This document shows positions 811-11,292 of a stretch of DNA of 13,931 nt, one piece after another. Within the stretch, counting starts at the first letter, position 1. Every line of letters starts with the position of its first letter. This DNA comes from Eggerthellaceae bacterium UBA5906 (lineage in GTDB: Bacteria > Actinomycetota > Coriobacteriia > Coriobacteriales > Eggerthellaceae). The stretch lies in assembly GCA_002431805.1 (NCBI GenBank), contig DJEE01000052.1, forward strand, positions 1-13,931. The letters are read 5' to 3'. The position numbers and the translations under genes were made by a program. Below the pieces are notes generated by a model. That model ran no database searches and was not told the DNA's origin. It saw only the letters and a program-made list of their open reading frames with translations.

Positions 811-1968
811 ATGTCGTTTTACGCCGACCCCAGCTTTTTTATAACGCTCGCCATCGCCATCACCGGCGCAGCCATCCTAGGCCTGCTCGAGAAGTCGCTG
901 AAATGGTACGGCCTTGCTGCGTCGGTCGCCTTTATCGCGATGCTGTTCATGAACGACCCAGCGCAGCTGGCATGCTGCGTGCTGTTCGTCGCGTCGGCAG
1001 GCGTGGCCTGCGCATTGCTGTCGCGCGCGCCGAAAGCCCGCTGGCGTTTCCGCATAGCGCTCGTGCTCACGCTGTATCCGCTGGTGGTATGCAAGGTAAG
1101 TGGAGCGTTCGACGCAAGCATTTTAGGGTTCGCGGGCATCTCGTACCTCACGTTCAAGGCGACGCAGGTCATCATCGAGATGCACGACGGCATCATCGAG
1201 AAAATCACCCCCAGCGACTGGGCGTGCTTCATTCTGTTCTTCCCGGTGTTCACCTCGGGCCCCATCGATCGAAGCAGGCGTTTTCTGGAAGACCTCCATG
1301 CCACGCCGAGCCGCGATGAATACGCGGGCATGCTTGCGCGCGGCATCCTGCTTATCACGGCGGGCATGGTGTACAAAATGGTCATCGCCGCGTTCATCTT
1401 TCGTTTTTACGACCCGCATGGGTGGGGAAGCGGACCATTCGCCGCTGAGCTTTGGCAGCAAATCGTCGTCGCTTACGAATACGGCCTGTATCTGTTCTTC
1501 GACTTCGCCGGGTACAGCCTCATGGCCATGGGAGCCAGCTATTGCTTCGGCATCCGCACTCCGCGCAATTTCCGCGCGCCGTTCTTGGCGGTCGACATTA
1601 AAGATTTTTGGAACCGTTGGCACATCACGCTGTCGTTCTGGTTGCGCGATTTCGTGTTCATGCGCTTCTCCCGCTTCGCCCTGAAGCATAAGCTGTTCAA
1701 GAAACGCCTGCATACCGCGCAATGCGGCTTCATGGTGAACATGGTGCTGATGGGCGCGTGGCATGGGCTTACGGCCGATTATCTGCTCTACGGCCTGTTC
1801 CACGGCGTACTGCTTGCCGCCACCGAGAGCTTCCAAAAAACGAAGTTCTACAAGGCGCACAAGAAGCAACTGGCATTCCGCGCCGTTTCGTGGTTCATCA
1901 CCATGCAAGCGGTGTTTTTCGGGTTCGCGTTGTTTTCGGGACAGATTACACGGCTCATAGCGGGATAG
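811..1968 (+). CDS. dltB: DltB-type membrane-bound O-acyltransferase (MBOAT)
   Basis: A 385-residue polytopic membrane protein of normal DltB length. Hydrophobic segments run from residue 8 to the C-terminus. MBOAT signatures are visible: FPVFTSGPIDR (144-154), WNRWHITLSFWLRD (267-280) and GAWHG with the presumed catalytic His318. Family knowledge: DltB accepts D-alanine from DltC and passes it across the membrane toward teichoic acid through DltD. The ATG is preceded by GGAAG directly after the dltA stop (gap 11 bases), so the two are probably co-transcribed and translationally coupled. No dltC or dltD follows; the next gene is convergent. The family also contains alginate and peptidoglycan O-acetyltransferases such as AlgI and PatA, but the dltA neighbour and the motif context favour DltB. 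Confidence 0.88.
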   Translation: MSFYADPSFFITLAIAITGAAILGLLEKSLKWYGLAASVAFIAMLFMNDPAQLACCVLFVASAGVACALLSRAPKARWRFRIALVLTLYPLVVCKVSGAFDASILGFAGISYLTFKATQVIIEMHDGIIEKITPSDWACFILFFPVFTSGPIDRSRRFLEDLHATPSRDEYAGMLARGILLITAGMVYKMVIAAFIFRFYDPHGWGSGPFAAELWQQIVVAYEYGLYLFFDFAGYSLMAMGASYCFGIRTPRNFRAPFLAVDIKDFWNRWHITLSFWLRDFVFMRFSRFALKHKLFKKRLHTAQCGFMVNMVLMGAWHGLTADYLLYGLFHGVLLAATESFQKTKFYKAHKKQLAFRAVSWFITMQAVFFGFALFSGQITRLIAG

Positions 1969-2015: not shown

Positions 2016-2037
2016 GGGACAACGTTCCAGGCGTCCC
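2016..2037 (-). repeat. Short hairpin with inverted copy of the shared tip sequence (copy A)
   Basis: GGGAC (2016-2020) pairs with GTCCC (2033-2037). Between and partly within these arms, the - strand reads ACGCCTGGAACGTTGT (2034 to 2019), identical over 16 bases to the tips of the long hairpins at 2131-2216 and 3333-3406 but in opposite orientation. The stem is only 5 bp, so this may be a truncated member of the same repeat family. Confidence 0.65.
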
Positions 2038-2130
2038 TGCGAGAGCATCAAGGCATTTTCTTGGTCGGCTTCAATCGCAACGAATCGAGCGAAGCTACCG
2101 CAATCTTTGCAATACGCAACGAGTTTCCTT

Positions 2131-2216
2131 TCGTTCGCCTTGGCTTGGGCGATGCCCTGACTCGAACGCCTGGAACGTTGTGAGAGGCAGGGCACCGCCC
2201 AAGCCAAGGCGAACGA
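2131..2216 (+). repeat. Long near-perfect inverted repeat with conserved tip (copy B)
   Basis: Arms 2131-2159 and 2188-2216 are complementary at 28 of 29 positions, with the single exception at 2152. The 28-base interior can extend the stem through CTC/GAG (2161-2163 with 2182-2184 or nearby) and AACG/CGTT (2165-2168 with 2176-2179), leaving a 7-base loop CCTGGAA. The interior contains GAACGCCTGGAACGTTGTGA (2164-2183), repeated exactly at 3360-3379 in a hairpin with a different stem. The outer arm begins two bases after the gluQRS stop codon. No T-run follows on either strand, so a classical terminator is unlikely, though the hairpin could protect both convergent mRNA 3' ends. Confidence 0.85.
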
Positions 2217-2218
2217 GA

Positions 2219-3154
2219 TTAATGCCACTGGATTTGGACTAAATCGGGAAACAACGTCGTTAGGCTTCTGATATCGAATGTGCCCAGCAATTCTTCTGGC
2301 GTAGTAGGGTCGCACGTTGGCGCAAGGCCGGTAATTCCAGCGATATGGCCAATGATGGCCTCGGGCGTTTTGAACCGCTCGAGCAACACGTCGAGCGCGG
2401 CATCGTGGTCGCGCTTCGACAGGCGGCGGTCTTTCTCTCCCACCATCAGCGGCACATGCGCGTACTGAGCGTGCTGAATGCCCAACAAATCTTGCAGATA
2501 CATCTGCTGTGGCGTGGAGCACAGCAAGTCCATGCCGCGCACGATGGAATTCACGCCCTGCTCGCCATCATCTACCACTACAGCAAGCTGATAGGCAAAC
2601 GCCTGGTCGCTGCGACGAATAAGGAAGTCACCGCAATCCTCTTCCAAATTCTGCGAATAATGCCCTTGAATCAAATCGTCGAACGAGATTGTTTCATCGG
2701 GCACGCGAAGACGCATCGCGGGCTTGCGCGAGACTGCCCTTTCCATGCGCTGCTGCGGCGTAAGATTGCGGCACGTCCCTGGGTACACAAGCTTTTCGCC
2801 ATGATGCGGCGCCGATGCAGCATGCAGATCGGCACGCGTGCAGAAACAAGGGTACACCAGACCTTTGTCAACAAGCGTATCGAACGCCGCCTGGTACGCA
2901 TCGTCCCGATCGTGCTGGAAATACGGCCCCTCGTCCCACGTAAGGCCCAATGTTTCGAAGTCACGTTGCACCGCATCGATGAACCGCGGTTTCGAGCGTT
3001 CCCGGTCGAGGTCTTCGATGCGCAGCACCATGGTACCGCCCTGGGATTTGGCCACCAGCCACGCCATCAAAGCAGAGAAAATATTGCCGGCATGCATGCG
3101 ACCCGTAGGCGAAGGAGCAAAACGTCCCTTAATATGAGTTCCTTGAGTTTCCAT
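2219..3154 (-). CDS. gluQRS: Glutamyl-Q tRNA(Asp) synthetase
   Basis: A 311-residue class I synthetase-like protein without an anticodon-binding domain, matching the short GluQRS (YadB) family of about 300 residues. Seen: GRFAPSPTG (10-18) followed by the HIGH-equivalent MHAGN (20-24), LRIEDLD (44-50), a zinc site CFC (103, 105) with Tyr124 and Cys128 in YPGTC, and the KMSKS-equivalent LSKR (245-248). Family knowledge: the enzyme activates glutamate with ATP and attaches it to the queuosine at position 34 of tRNA-Asp in the cytoplasm. The frame is open to 3247, but homology starts at the ATG at 3154 (METQGT), which is chosen. No good ribosome binding site precedes it; the nearest GGAG is about 16 bases upstream, and TATTCT lies a few bases before the ATG, so translation may be leaderless (inference). 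The gene stands alone, convergent to dltB. Confidence 0.9.
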   Translation of the reverse strand: METQGTHIKGRFAPSPTGRMHAGNIFSALMAWLVAKSQGGTMVLRIEDLDRERSKPRFIDAVQRDFETLGLTWDEGPYFQHDRDDAYQAAFDTLVDKGLVYPCFCTRADLHAASAPHHGEKLVYPGTCRNLTPQQRMERAVSRKPAMRLRVPDETISFDDLIQGHYSQNLEEDCGDFLIRRSDQAFAYQLAVVVDDGEQGVNSIVRGMDLLCSTPQQMYLQDLLGIQHAQYAHVPLMVGEKDRRLSKRDHDAALDVLLERFKTPEAIIGHIAGITGLAPTCDPTTPEELLGTFDIRSLTTLFPDLVQIQWH

Positions 3155-3332
3155 GCACGGTAGAATACCACTCCAGCAAAGGCAACCGCTTCCAAAGAAG
3201 AGGCCACGCCCCATAGACTCGCATAGTTTCATCCGCCATCGCGTCATATCAAGATTCCGAAAAGCTCATGAAGGCATGGAAAACTCGGCAGAATGATGGT
3301 CACGCGCAGGGGACGCCAACCTCAATATGGCA

Positions 3333-3406
3333 GCGCCAAGGCGGACTGGCTGGATTTCTGAACGCCTGGAACGTTGTGAAGAAATCTGGCCAGTCCGCTT
3401 TGGCGC
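3333..3406 (+). repeat. Long inverted repeat with conserved tip (copy C)
   Basis: Arms 3333-3358 and 3381-3406 pair at 23 of 26 positions by Watson-Crick rules. The other three positions are all G-U pairs if the + strand is read as RNA, whereas on the - strand they would be A-C mismatches. The 22-base interior contains GAACGCCTGGAACGTTGTGA (3360-3379), identical to the interior of copy B although the arms differ. The tip can fold as AACG/CGTT around the 7-base loop CCTGGAA. It lies just beyond the intrinsic terminator of the paaK-like 1 gene. Confidence 0.85.
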
Positions 3407-3410
3407 GATG

Positions 3411-3444
3411 GGATAAAACAAGCGGCGAGCCAAAACCCGCCGCT
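3411..3444 (-). terminator. Intrinsic terminator of the - strand operon
   Basis: On the - strand AGCGGCG (3444-3438) pairs perfectly with CGCCGCT (3427-3421) around a 10-base loop and is followed at once by TGTTTTATCC (3420-3411). It lies 11 bases beyond the stop codon of the paaK-like ligase ending at 3456, so it is well placed to end the ten-gene - strand run. Confidence 0.8.
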
Positions 3445-3455
3445 CCAAAAACTGC

Positions 3456-4844
3456 TTATTTTCGCAAATCCTCAACATGCTTGGTTTTGCCCGTGGAACG
3501 CTCGATTCCGCCAGGCTCAACCAGTTTCACCTTCGAGGCAACCAGCATCACACTCTTCAGCTTCTCTTCAATTTTGCGACGGAAGTTGTCCATTTCTTCG
3601 AAGGAATCGCTGAATGCCTCGGGCTTCAGCTCAACATGCACAACCATGCGGTCGAGACCCGTTTCGTTGTCTACGACGATACGATAGTGCGGCGTGACGC
3701 CTTCGATGGTCGACAACACGTCTTCCACCTGCGACGGGAAGACATTCGTGCCGCGAATGATAAGCATATCGTCGCAGCGTGCGCGCACCTTCTGCATTCG
3801 GGCCGTCGTGCGGCCGCATGCGCACTTGTCTTTGATGACGCGCGTCAAATCGTGCGTGCGGTAGCGCAGCACGGGAATGGCATGCTTGCCAAGCGGAGTG
3901 AGCACCAACTCTCCCATCTGGCCGTCGGGCACAGGCTCGCCCGTTTCAGGGTCGACGACTTCCCACAGGAAATGATCCTCGGCAATATGCTGCATGTCAC
4001 GGCTCGCCAGGCACTCGCCCGAAACGCCCGGGCCCGTGACCTCGGTCAGGCCGTAGTTGTCAGTGCATACGATATGCATGCGGCTCTCGATTTCCGCCTT
4101 CAAGGCGGGCGTGCACGGCTCGCCGCCAAACAGACCGACGCGCAGGGTGCTCTTCTCCCAGTCGTAGCCCATCTTCTCGCCCACCTCGCACACATGCAAC
4201 GCATACGATGGCGTAGCCACGAACACCGTTGAACCGTAATCCTGAATCATCTGGATTTGACGCTCGGTGTTGCCTGATCCCGCGGGAATCATCATGCATC
4301 CCAAGCGCTGCAGGCCGTAGTGCAAGCCAAAGCCGCCCGTGAACATGCCATAGCCAAACGCCATCTGCACGCGGTCGGTGGGAACCACACCCGCCATCTG
4401 AACCAAACGCATGATGCAATCGTTCCATACGTCCATGTCGTGACGGTTATAGCCAACCACAATAGGCTTGCCCGTGGTGCCCGACGAGGCATGCAACTCC
4501 ACAACCTCATCAAGCGGCACGGCGAACATACCGTACGGGAAGGTTTTACGAAGGGCGTTTTTGTCCGTAAACGGCAGCTTGCGCACATCTTCAAGACACT
4601 TGATGTCCGAGGGCTTCACGCCCATCTCGTCCATTTGATTGCGGTACCACTCCACGCGCTCGTAGGTCCACTCAACCTGCGCAATGAGCTTTTCAAGCTG
4701 GATAGCACGAATGCGCTCGCGCGAGCAACATTCCACATCGGAGTTATGAATAGGCAGCTCGTCAAACTTACCCTCCGCAGCCGCTTGCAAAGCCGCCCCT
4801 TTTTTCGTGATATCAATCATCGTCAAACTCATTTCTCGCTGCAT
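3456..4844 (-). CDS. Aryl/phenylacetate-CoA ligase (PaaK-like 1)
   Basis: A 462-residue AMP-forming CoA ligase of the PaaK family, cytoplasmic. Seen: the P-loop HASSGTTGKP (118-127), YGLTEVTGPG (264-273), YRTHD (328-332), a CACG zinc pair (Cys341, Cys343) that with Cys278 and His286 resembles the PaaK zinc site, DDMLIIRGTNVFPSQVE (358-374) opening the C-terminal domain, and the terminal TGKTKH with the likely catalytic lysine. It carries about 30 extra N-terminal residues compared with the second ligase at 9988-11292. Family knowledge: it converts an aryl acid plus ATP and CoA to aryl-CoA, AMP and PPi. Its place at the end of the iorA-iorB-ACT genes points to arylacetates as substrates (inference). 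The start is uncertain: ATGs at 4844, 4832 and 4820 are all close, and none has a strong ribosome binding site. It follows the ACT gene by 19 bases. Confidence 0.85.
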   Translation of the reverse strand: MQREMSLTMIDITKKGAALQAAAEGKFDELPIHNSDVECCSRERIRAIQLEKLIAQVEWTYERVEWYRNQMDEMGVKPSDIKCLEDVRKLPFTDKNALRKTFPYGMFAVPLDEVVELHASSGTTGKPIVVGYNRHDMDVWNDCIMRLVQMAGVVPTDRVQMAFGYGMFTGGFGLHYGLQRLGCMMIPAGSGNTERQIQMIQDYGSTVFVATPSYALHVCEVGEKMGYDWEKSTLRVGLFGGEPCTPALKAEIESRMHIVCTDNYGLTEVTGPGVSGECLASRDMQHIAEDHFLWEVVDPETGEPVPDGQMGELVLTPLGKHAIPVLRYRTHDLTRVIKDKCACGRTTARMQKVRARCDDMLIIRGTNVFPSQVEDVLSTIEGVTPHYRIVVDNETGLDRMVVHVELKPEAFSDSFEEMDNFRRKIEEKLKSVMLVASKVKLVEPGGIERSTGKTKHVEDLRK

Positions 4845-9987: not shown

Positions 9988-11292
9988 TTAGCTCTCCTTT
10001 CGCAGGTCGATGATGCGCTTTGCCTTGCCCTCGCTGCGTTCGATGGACTTCGGCTCAACCAGCTTGATGTCCACGGCAATCTGCAGGTTGCTCTTCAGCT
10101 CGGCAGCCAAGCGCTTTTTCAGGTCCTCAAGCTTGCGAATCTCGTCGAACGGGAACTCGGGAACGGTTTCAACGCGCAGCTCAACATGGTCAAGCGGACC
10201 ACGCGTGGTCAGGATGATCTGATACTGCGTGGCAATCTCCGGGAATTCGGTGATGACCTGCTCGATCTGCGAGGGGAACACGTTCACGCCGCGCAGGATG
10301 AGCATGTCGTCGGAACGGCCGATGATGCGGTCGATCTTACGATGGGTGCGTCCGCAAGCGCACGGCTCGGAGATGATGCGCGTGATGTCGCGCGTGCGGT
10401 AACGCACAAGCGGGCAGCACTCACGGGTAAGCGTGGTGAACACCAGCTCGCCGTACTGACCGTCAGGCACGGGCTCAAGCGTGTTCGGGTCGATGATCTC
10501 GGCAAAGAAGTGATCCTCGGCGAGGTGCAAACCGCTCATTTCCTTGCATTCGAAGGCAACGCCCGGGCCCATAACCTCAGACAGGCCGTACACGTCGCAG
10601 TACTGGATGCCCAGCTTCTGAGCGATTTCCTCGCGCATGCCCTGACTGCACGGCTCGGCGCCGAAGATGCCGGCATGCAGCTTCAGGTCAGTGGCAGGGT
10701 TGATGCCCATCTCAATGGCGGTATCGGCAATGTGCAGCGCGTAGGACGGCGTGCAAGCAAGCACGTCGACGTCCATGTCTTTAAGCATTTGGATTTGGCG
10801 CTTGGTGTTGCCCGAAGACGTGGGGATAACGGCACAGCCAGCGGTTTCGCCGCCCACATGCGCACCCAAGCCGCCCGTGAACAGGCCGTAGCCGTAGGAT
10901 ACCTGCATGGTGGAGTTCTCGTCGCAGTCGCACATGGCAAGACCGCGTGCGAAGCACTCGCCCCAGTGCTTCAGATCGTTTTTGGTGGAACCGACAACCG
11001 TTGCCTGGCCGGTGGTGCCGGAAGAGGCATGCAGGCGCGCAACCTTGCTGCGCGGCACCGCAAACAGGCCGTCGGGGTAGTTGTCTCGCATATCCTGCTT
11101 CAGGATAAAGGGGAACTTCGTAATGTCCTCGAGCGTTTTCAGGTCGCCCGGCTCAACACCGGCTTCCTTAAACGACTTCTGGTAGAAAGGGACGTTGTCG
11201 TATGCGTATTGCACGCACCATTTCATGCGCTCAAGCTGCAGATCACGCAGCTCCTCACGTGACATCGTTTCGATTTCCGGCTGGAAGTACAC
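9988..11292 (-). CDS. Aryl/phenylacetate-CoA ligase (PaaK-like 2)
   Basis: A 434-residue PaaK-family ligase of standard length. Seen: the opening QPEIETMSREEL typical of the family, P-loop HASSGTTGQA (88-97), YGLSEVMGPG (235-244), the zinc set Cys249, His256, Cys311 and Cys313 (CACGR), YRTRD (298-302), DDMLILRGVNVFPSQIE (328-344) and a C-terminal SEGKAKR carrying the likely catalytic lysine. It makes aryl-CoA from an aryl acid, ATP and CoA. The start is GTG at 11292: it keeps the conserved N-terminus and has AAAGG about 10 bases upstream; an internal ATG nine codons later would remove conserved residues. It is clearly related to PaaK-like 1 but not a recent duplicate, since substitutions are spread throughout. 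The ACT gene follows after 3 bases. Confidence 0.9.
   Translation of the reverse strand: MYFQPEIETMSREELRDLQLERMKWCVQYAYDNVPFYQKSFKEAGVEPGDLKTLEDITKFPFILKQDMRDNYPDGLFAVPRSKVARLHASSGTTGQATVVGSTKNDLKHWGECFARGLAMCDCDENSTMQVSYGYGLFTGGLGAHVGGETAGCAVIPTSSGNTKRQIQMLKDMDVDVLACTPSYALHIADTAIEMGINPATDLKLHAGIFGAEPCSQGMREEIAQKLGIQYCDVYGLSEVMGPGVAFECKEMSGLHLAEDHFFAEIIDPNTLEPVPDGQYGELVFTTLTRECCPLVRYRTRDITRIISEPCACGRTHRKIDRIIGRSDDMLILRGVNVFPSQIEQVITEFPEIATQYQIILTTRGPLDHVELRVETVPEFPFDEIRKLEDLKKRLAAELKSNLQIAVDIKLVEPKSIERSEGKAKRIIDLRKES

Follow-up and report, generated by a model that had tools for sequence, protein, structure and literature searches.

What kind of hairpin keeps its tip and changes its stem? 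The question is raised by two long inverted repeats that lie on the two sides of a gluQRS gene in a stretch of 13,931 nucleotides from Eggerthellaceae bacterium UBA5906 (contig DJEE01000052.1; we refer to the whole stretch as the window). Repeated hairpins of bacterial genomes normally conserve their stems or their ends. Conservation of the tip only, with every stem different yet paired, would mean that something reads the tip and that the helix is a mere handle.

Hairpins in the window and their surroundings

Both inverted repeats that a sequence-only reading of the window had reported were recovered (h1 and h2 in Table 1), and the identical 20-base interior described for them, GAACGCCTGGAACGTTGTGA, was confirmed in each. 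The arms of h1 are 94% complementary, with two mismatches, and those of h2 89% complementary; the mismatched positions of h2 are three wobble pairs on the P strand, as we call the strand that reads the 16-base core ACGCCTGGAACGTTGT (the M strand is the opposite strand). The sequence-only reading was right about the two long hairpins and overlooked a third copy of the 16-mer, c0, whose stem is limited to five base pairs. When the flanks of the core were scored for inverted arms, h1 reached 28.0 and h2 19.5, and c0 only 3. Folded as RNA with a few flanking bases added, h1 and h2 have predicted energies of -68.4 and -55.6 kcal/mol; the corresponding z-scores are -10.05 and -8.51, and none of 200 shuffles was equally good.

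Table 1. Positions in the window of the hairpins, the third core copy and the neighbouring genes
Feature	Position	Strand	Remarks
MBOAT (membrane-bound O-acyltransferase) gene	811..1968	+	upstream of c0
c0, 16-mer core	2019..2034	-	GGGAC/GTCCC stem; about 50 nt past the MBOAT gene
h1 hairpin	2131..2216	+	33-nt arms (2131-2163 and 2184-2216) around a 20-nt interior; P strand is +
Tip of h1, GAACGCCTGGAACGTTGTGA	2164..2183	+	16-mer core 2166-2181
gluQRS (class I tRNA synthetase, E and Q catalytic domain)	2219..3154	-	ORF 2219-3247; start at 3154 chosen by us
h2 hairpin	3333..3406	+	27-nt arms (3333-3359 and 3380-3406) around a 20-nt interior; between gluQRS and the paaK-type gene
Tip of h2, identical 20-mer	3360..3379	+	16-mer core 3362-3377
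Terminator-like hairpin of the paaK-type gene	3420..3445	-	T-rich tail; adjoins h2
AMP-binding gene, paaK-type	3456..4844	-	ORF and Pfam

The first hairpin ends 2 nt before the stop codon of gluQRS, that is, it starts 2 nt past the stop in the direction of the gene. The T tract of an ordinary terminator is absent at both h1 and h2, and neither is in the list of terminator-like hairpins of the window, for which the scan took loops of 3-8 only. An Rfam search of the window gave no match at the curated gathering score. Between positions 1960 and 3470 there were eight matches below threshold, six of which were microRNA-precursor models fitting the long hairpins, the best with 42.9 bits where 95 are needed. 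These models reward any long hairpin, and they match h1 (window 2128-2219) on both strands with 42.8-42.9 bits against the cut-off of 95. Elsewhere in the window, a second gene similar to the paaK-type AMP-binding gene of Table 1 (the one put to Pfam) is located at 9988-11292; each of the two adjoins a short protein that we read as ACT-domain-like, and by the same kind of reading the ORFs between them look like indolepyruvate oxidoreductase subunits.

The length of the stem sets the hairpins of the window apart to different degrees. In 264 kb of the own genome the arms and scores of other hairpins reach at most 18, one conserved-stem repeat family being left out. With penalties for mismatches h1 scores 27 and h2 18 (three wobble positions; its arms are still 27 nt long); h1 is a clear outlier, and h2 is an outlier in length only. 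The family left out consists of about 11 long inverted repeats in these 264 kb, which have a conserved stem, CGTGAACA..GGGGACGGAG..GTGTTCACG, and a variable interior of 26-34 nt (L228 13582-13670, L216 7513-7601, L230 141-230 and others); it is a separate family of ordinary appearance.

Copies in other genomes

Within the own genome, a draft of 2.36 Mb in 182 contigs that is 84% complete, a 13-mer of the core occurs three times, as does the 20-mer with up to three mismatches, and all of these copies fall within 1.4 kb of the window. By the terms of the sequence-only reading, a 16-mer confined to its sites in the genome, or a majority of genomic copies without flanking inverted repeats, would refute the family. 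Taken literally, the own genome gives the first of these outcomes: the 16-mer is confined to this region, and one of the three copies (c0) is without long arms. This result is outweighed by copies with arms in other genomes.

An exact scan for the 16-mer in one genome per species, covering 84,980 species (from which records close to the genome of the window may be missing), returned 81 stretches, all of which were tested for flanking inverted arms. Three of them have long arms, each with its own stem: L055 and L061 in Slackia isoflavoniconvertens DSM 22006, an isolate genome from the Eggerthellaceae, and L062 in a metagenome-assembled genome (MAG) from the Lachnospiraceae. Their arm scores are 13.5-17.5, and the next best among the 81 stretches are 8.5 and 6.5. 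Random flank pairs of even composition gave a maximum of 11.5 in 20,000 trials, and random flanks at 50, 60 and 70% GC gave maxima of 9.5-11.5 (20,000 trials each). When up to three mismatches to the 20-mer were allowed, there were two copies in the S. isoflavoniconvertens genome and one in the Lachnospiraceae MAG. We thus have six copies, five long hairpins and c0, in three genomes from two phyla, and the core of the sequence-only reading, a conserved tip on unrelated stems, holds and extends to S. isoflavoniconvertens and the MAG. Besides an XRE regulator, the contig with L062 has an ABC-transporter operon and other ordinary genes, and relatives of the XRE protein with 90 and 85% identity are present in two other genomes of the MAG's genus; this contig therefore does not look like contamination from Slackia.

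The copy L061 is located between prfA and prmC, L055 between an AEC-like permease (so named by reading; Pfam gave no match) and sufU, and L062 between an ABC ATPase and an XRE gene. The placement on both sides of gluQRS, which the sequence-only reading had named, therefore looks incidental. All long hairpins are at gene ends. Read in the direction of the M strand (the ACAACG direction), five of the six copies come 2-50 nt beyond a gene that runs in the same direction (MBOAT, gluQRS, the paaK-type gene, sufU and prfA); the Lachnospiraceae copy has the opposite orientation. T-rich DNA comes next on the ACAACG side of three of the five long hairpins (L055, TTGGTTTTTATC; L061, ACTTCTTTATTT; L062, ATTTTCTGT). 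No recombinase, transposase or RNA-binding gene was recognised next to the copies (eight neighbours by Pfam, of which seven matched; the rest by eye), and no intron, maturase or reverse transcriptase gene was noticed by eye among the neighbouring ORFs.

Searches of related genomes yielded no further members with long arms. A covariance model (R1) built from four of the long hairpins and applied with strict filters gave four matches in two of 138 Eggerthellaceae genomes, no match in two congeners of the window genome or in 11 of S. isoflavoniconvertens, and one match in one of 397 genomes drawn from the family of the MAG, a set that is not shown to contain every congener of the MAG; in these searches no more than 39 or 13 first-look candidates were scored in each genome, and weak members could escape. 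The model that the sequence-only reading had called for thus recovers the known hairpins and no others in the two sets. With up to one mismatch, the core was found at 18 places in 14 of the 138 Eggerthellaceae genomes, and long arms were present only at h1, h2 and the two copies of S. isoflavoniconvertens. The search proposed for the whole genome and related Coriobacteriia has brought to light copies with arms in other genomes, and no family spread genome-wide or, judged by these 138 Eggerthellaceae, across the Coriobacteriia. The 13-mer has four places outside the window in 41 genomes, none of them with arms by eye, and no hairpin with an intermediate tip was seen in 1.02 Mb from the three carrier genomes. 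In IMG/VR eight stretches contain the 16-mer and none has arms; variant tips gave 0 and 2 matches in viral contigs, the two being without arms by eye. A 60-base query from h2 found six and five records in plasmid and phage collections, all of them chance partial matches. As far as searched, the hairpin site appears to be rare and patchy and to cross phyla. We found no description of a hairpin family that shares its tip in the literature searched, which is not proof of absence.

Orthologous sites were also read in relatives. The spacer between the paaK-type gene and gluQRS is about 300 bases long in the window genome and about 50 bases in two congeners, whose gluQRS orthologues are 75 and 73% identical. 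Between prfA and prmC, S. isoflavoniconvertens has a spacer of about 145 bases; among the five congeners read, stop and start overlap in two (G119 and G130), and three more distant ones have other spacers. At the end of sufU, six other species of the genus have other sequences, and in five of the six these include an ordinary terminator-like hairpin with a different stem (judged by eye). For the Lachnospiraceae locus, the regions upstream of the XRE gene are rearranged in three relatives, and for the ABC permease, 15 genomes of the MAG's genus contain no relative with more than 50% identity and, over the full length, none with more than 45%. No stem of ours was found with another loop in the orthologous regions, where the longest match to an arm is 7-11 bases.

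We also considered the stem as a guide or antisense sequence. Four of the five stems (L061 was left out) gave 1, 3, 1 and 0 matches to viral contigs; all five matches are in open frames of more than 120 codons, one of them at the end of its frame, they have nothing in common, and their number is about that expected by chance by our estimate. A 16-nt match to an arm of h1 elsewhere in the own genome falls within a long open reading frame, where we saw no hairpin. We rejected these candidates.

The free stem and the fixed tip

The long hairpins were aligned without L061, because of its bulge, and in the resulting alignment of four 95.5% of the stem cells form standard pairs, versus 58.8% after shuffling, and none of 500 shuffles was as high; six slid versions of the alignment reached at most 45.5%. 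Twenty of the 22 stem pairs change on both sides, and the other two are the invariant AC/GT. Beyond the tip, h1 and L062 agree over three inner base pairs and h2 and L055 over five, one double change included; no longer stretches are shared. The flanks of the six copies agree at p<0.05 in two of 30 comparisons, the number expected by chance, which bears out the earlier claim that the stems are unrelated. Since the flanks of copies within one genome are unrelated too, whole hairpins were not simply copied. These observations support a stem for which pairing is enough, and it is the tip, not the stem, that seems to do the work.

The core itself has no change in 96 bases, against 11 non-Watson-Crick pairs among the 123 arm pairs counted. 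For arms that were perfect at the outset, a core without any change would have a nominal probability of about 0.01; the figure overstates the constancy and is too favourable, because an exact search supplied the three outside copies, the inner bulge of L061 was not counted and the arms were perhaps never perfect. Mismatches in the core were permitted in the own genome, in S. isoflavoniconvertens, in the MAG and in the 138 Eggerthellaceae genomes only, and there no hairpin with an intermediate tip was found. Subject to this manner of ascertainment, the data support a tip that is read by a putative recogniser. The exact matching slightly weakens our best reading, that of a recognised tip, and slightly strengthens the rival in which the tip is the scar of an insertion.

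The bases next to the core suggest which strand folds. This step is GA on both sides in four hairpins, GC/GC in L061 and GG/CC in c0, so that on the P strand it would form either a tandem G.A or two Watson-Crick pairs; a step of the GA type turns into a T.C/C.T mismatch when it is the M strand that folds. The P strand, ACGCCTGGAACGTTGT, is therefore suggested as the folding strand. Tandem sheared G.A pairs favour a pyrimidine before and a purine after them, and all four GA hairpins have three pyrimidines ahead of GA, each paired to a purine (12 of 12 bases; this was noticed afterwards). The simplest model suggested by these sequences is a helix that runs through AC/GT to a 12-nt loop, GCCTGGAACGTT. 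The inner fold proposed earlier, AACG-CCTGGAA-CGTT, is not borne out by the comparison: the first A of AACG is C or G in L061 and c0, and in these copies the pairing is made by the two bases that border the 16-mer on either side. In the GA hairpins, three or four of the AACG/CGTT pairs do appear in the structures from energy programs. Other measures are indecisive as to the strand, whether taken from wobble pairs or from RNA or DNA energies; the P strand has seven G.U pairs versus three on the M strand, and predicted RNA stability favours the P strand in three of the five long hairpins and the M strand in two.

Readings of the hairpin site

We lean, short of an even chance, towards a rare hairpin site that spread horizontally and has a recognised tip, the stem being captured or made anew at each gene end. 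This reading is preferred for the patchiness of the site together with its unrelated stems within one genome, which argue against a regulon inherited vertically and against hairpins copied as a whole. The P strand would fold, with a helix running through the tandem G.A or Watson-Crick step to the loop GCCTGGAACGTT, and a sequence-specific factor, probably on a mobile element, would read the loop of the folded strand. The tip would spread horizontally between genomes, and a copy would land at the centre of an existing palindrome (at gene ends, terminators are the commonest); alternatively, the second arm would be copied from the first. Either step would explain that no two stems are alike. The preferred reading has to contend with c0, which is almost without a stem, with the T-rich tract beyond the stem on the opposite strand in three of the five hairpins, which suits a terminator and not a folded P strand, and with the finding of no copy with arms in plasmids, phages or IMG/VR. 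We consider it unlikely that the hairpins amount to a new minimal mobile or recombination site, with a tip of 16-20 bases that would act through the folded strand and an element-encoded enzyme, cross phyla, and capture or generate its stem; if true, such a site would be the reverse of the repeat families that move by copying their stems or ends. Movement between phyla would point to an undescribed loop-reading enzyme or RNA-binding factor.

Given the terminator-like setting, a 3'-end RNA element is nearly as likely as the preferred reading, and somewhat below it in our estimate. The M strand, ACAACGTTCCAGGCGT, would then be transcribed as a terminator or as a hairpin in the 3'-UTR of an mRNA; the loop, bound by a protein or small RNA, would be fixed, and the stem would need only to pair. 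The location of five of the six copies shortly downstream of co-directional genes and the T-rich DNA after three of the five long hairpins favour this explanation, as do the ordinary terminator-like hairpins at the end of sufU in five of six other species. The 723 kb of S. isoflavoniconvertens analysed contain many hairpins with stems of 14-18 bp and T-rich tails (stems of this length are common, and a few have 20-25 bp), and the copies in this genome could be stretched terminators. However, the window hairpins have no T tract, h2 comes after a separate terminator, and the Lachnospiraceae copy is oriented oppositely; moreover, the M strand would have to accommodate the T.C/C.T mismatch and has the smaller number of G.U wobbles (three versus seven), and absence from congeners is odd for a regulon of the host. 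If the hairpin is a variant of the terminator, it points to a loop-binding regulator at transcript ends. Alternatively, a larger mobile element may have left the tip as a remnant of 16-20 bases in the loop of ordinary terminators that were already present, or the tip may be all that was inserted there; in either case its identity would reflect recent insertion and not selection. The gene-end position of all long hairpins is in keeping with this, the stem of L061, GAGCCCC...GGGGCTC, resembles other hairpins of S. isoflavoniconvertens (e.g., AACGAGCCCTGCGG/CCGCAGGGCTCGTT), and GA...GA and GC...GC can be read as target duplications of 2 bp; however, c0 is without a duplication, no relative has the same stem with another loop (arm matches in orthologous regions end at 7-11 bases), and the arms of 33 and 27 nt in the window exceed the at most 18 of own-genome hairpins (264 kb, one repeat family aside), although with penalties only h1 stands out. 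We regard such a scar as improbable. That the family is due to chance or artefact, be it a coincidence of loops among unrelated hairpins, adapter sequence or misassembly, might be considered because there are only three carriers, two of them known from draft genomes of uncultured bacteria. However, the two copies in the isolate genome DSM 22006, the several substitutions in the arms, and arm scores beyond all random trials largely refute this explanation and make it very improbable.

The hairpin site differs from each of the known systems with which we compared it. Intrinsic (rho-independent) terminators, GC-rich hairpins with a T-rich tract directly after them, are likewise stem-loops found at the ends of genes, with a stem that changes from one gene to the next, and T-rich DNA comes after three of our five long hairpins; here, in contrast, the tip is identical across two phyla, and the hairpins of the window have longer arms and no T tract. 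The loop of intrinsic terminators is not known to be conserved. Stems and flanks that are unrelated beyond the tip and a few inner bases differ from what a repeat of the REP or MITE type would have. DNA uptake sequences are present in very many copies, hundreds per genome. In Neisseria and Haemophilus they occur as inverted repeats of terminators, a short repeated word in hairpins at gene ends, according to PMC2267715. There the repeated word is the stem, whereas here it is the loop, with three, two and one copies in the three genomes. The hairpin of an integron attC site is a folded single strand whose stem varies in length and sequence and whose tip varies, whereas the outer core sites GTTRRRY/RYYYAAC at its base are conserved; the variable stem is shared with our hairpins, the conserved tip is the reverse of attC, and the bases of our hairpins have no sequence in common. 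Iron-responsive elements are RNA hairpins recognised by their loop, which is conserved on a stem of free sequence; in our case the stem is far longer, the spread is patchy and the reader of the tip is putative. The targets of group IIC introns are terminators, and they resemble our hairpins, for which a mobile reader is proposed, as folded DNA read by a mobile element; here the loop sequence is the conserved part. According to PMC10190682, the stem of the target is capped by two non-canonical G-A pairs, and the intron also reads bases after the stem.

In S. isoflavoniconvertens, a perfect hairpin of 25 bp with a 15-nt loop is located between two ORFs at C1 24763-24827 (L196 4763-4827), without the tip and without a T tract. 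The same genome has at least seven similar palindromes, AACCTGTTAAATGCT-cgt-AGCATTTAACAGGTT (C1, C3, C5 and C6; e.g., L146 18163-18195), which are possibly operator sites of a regulator.
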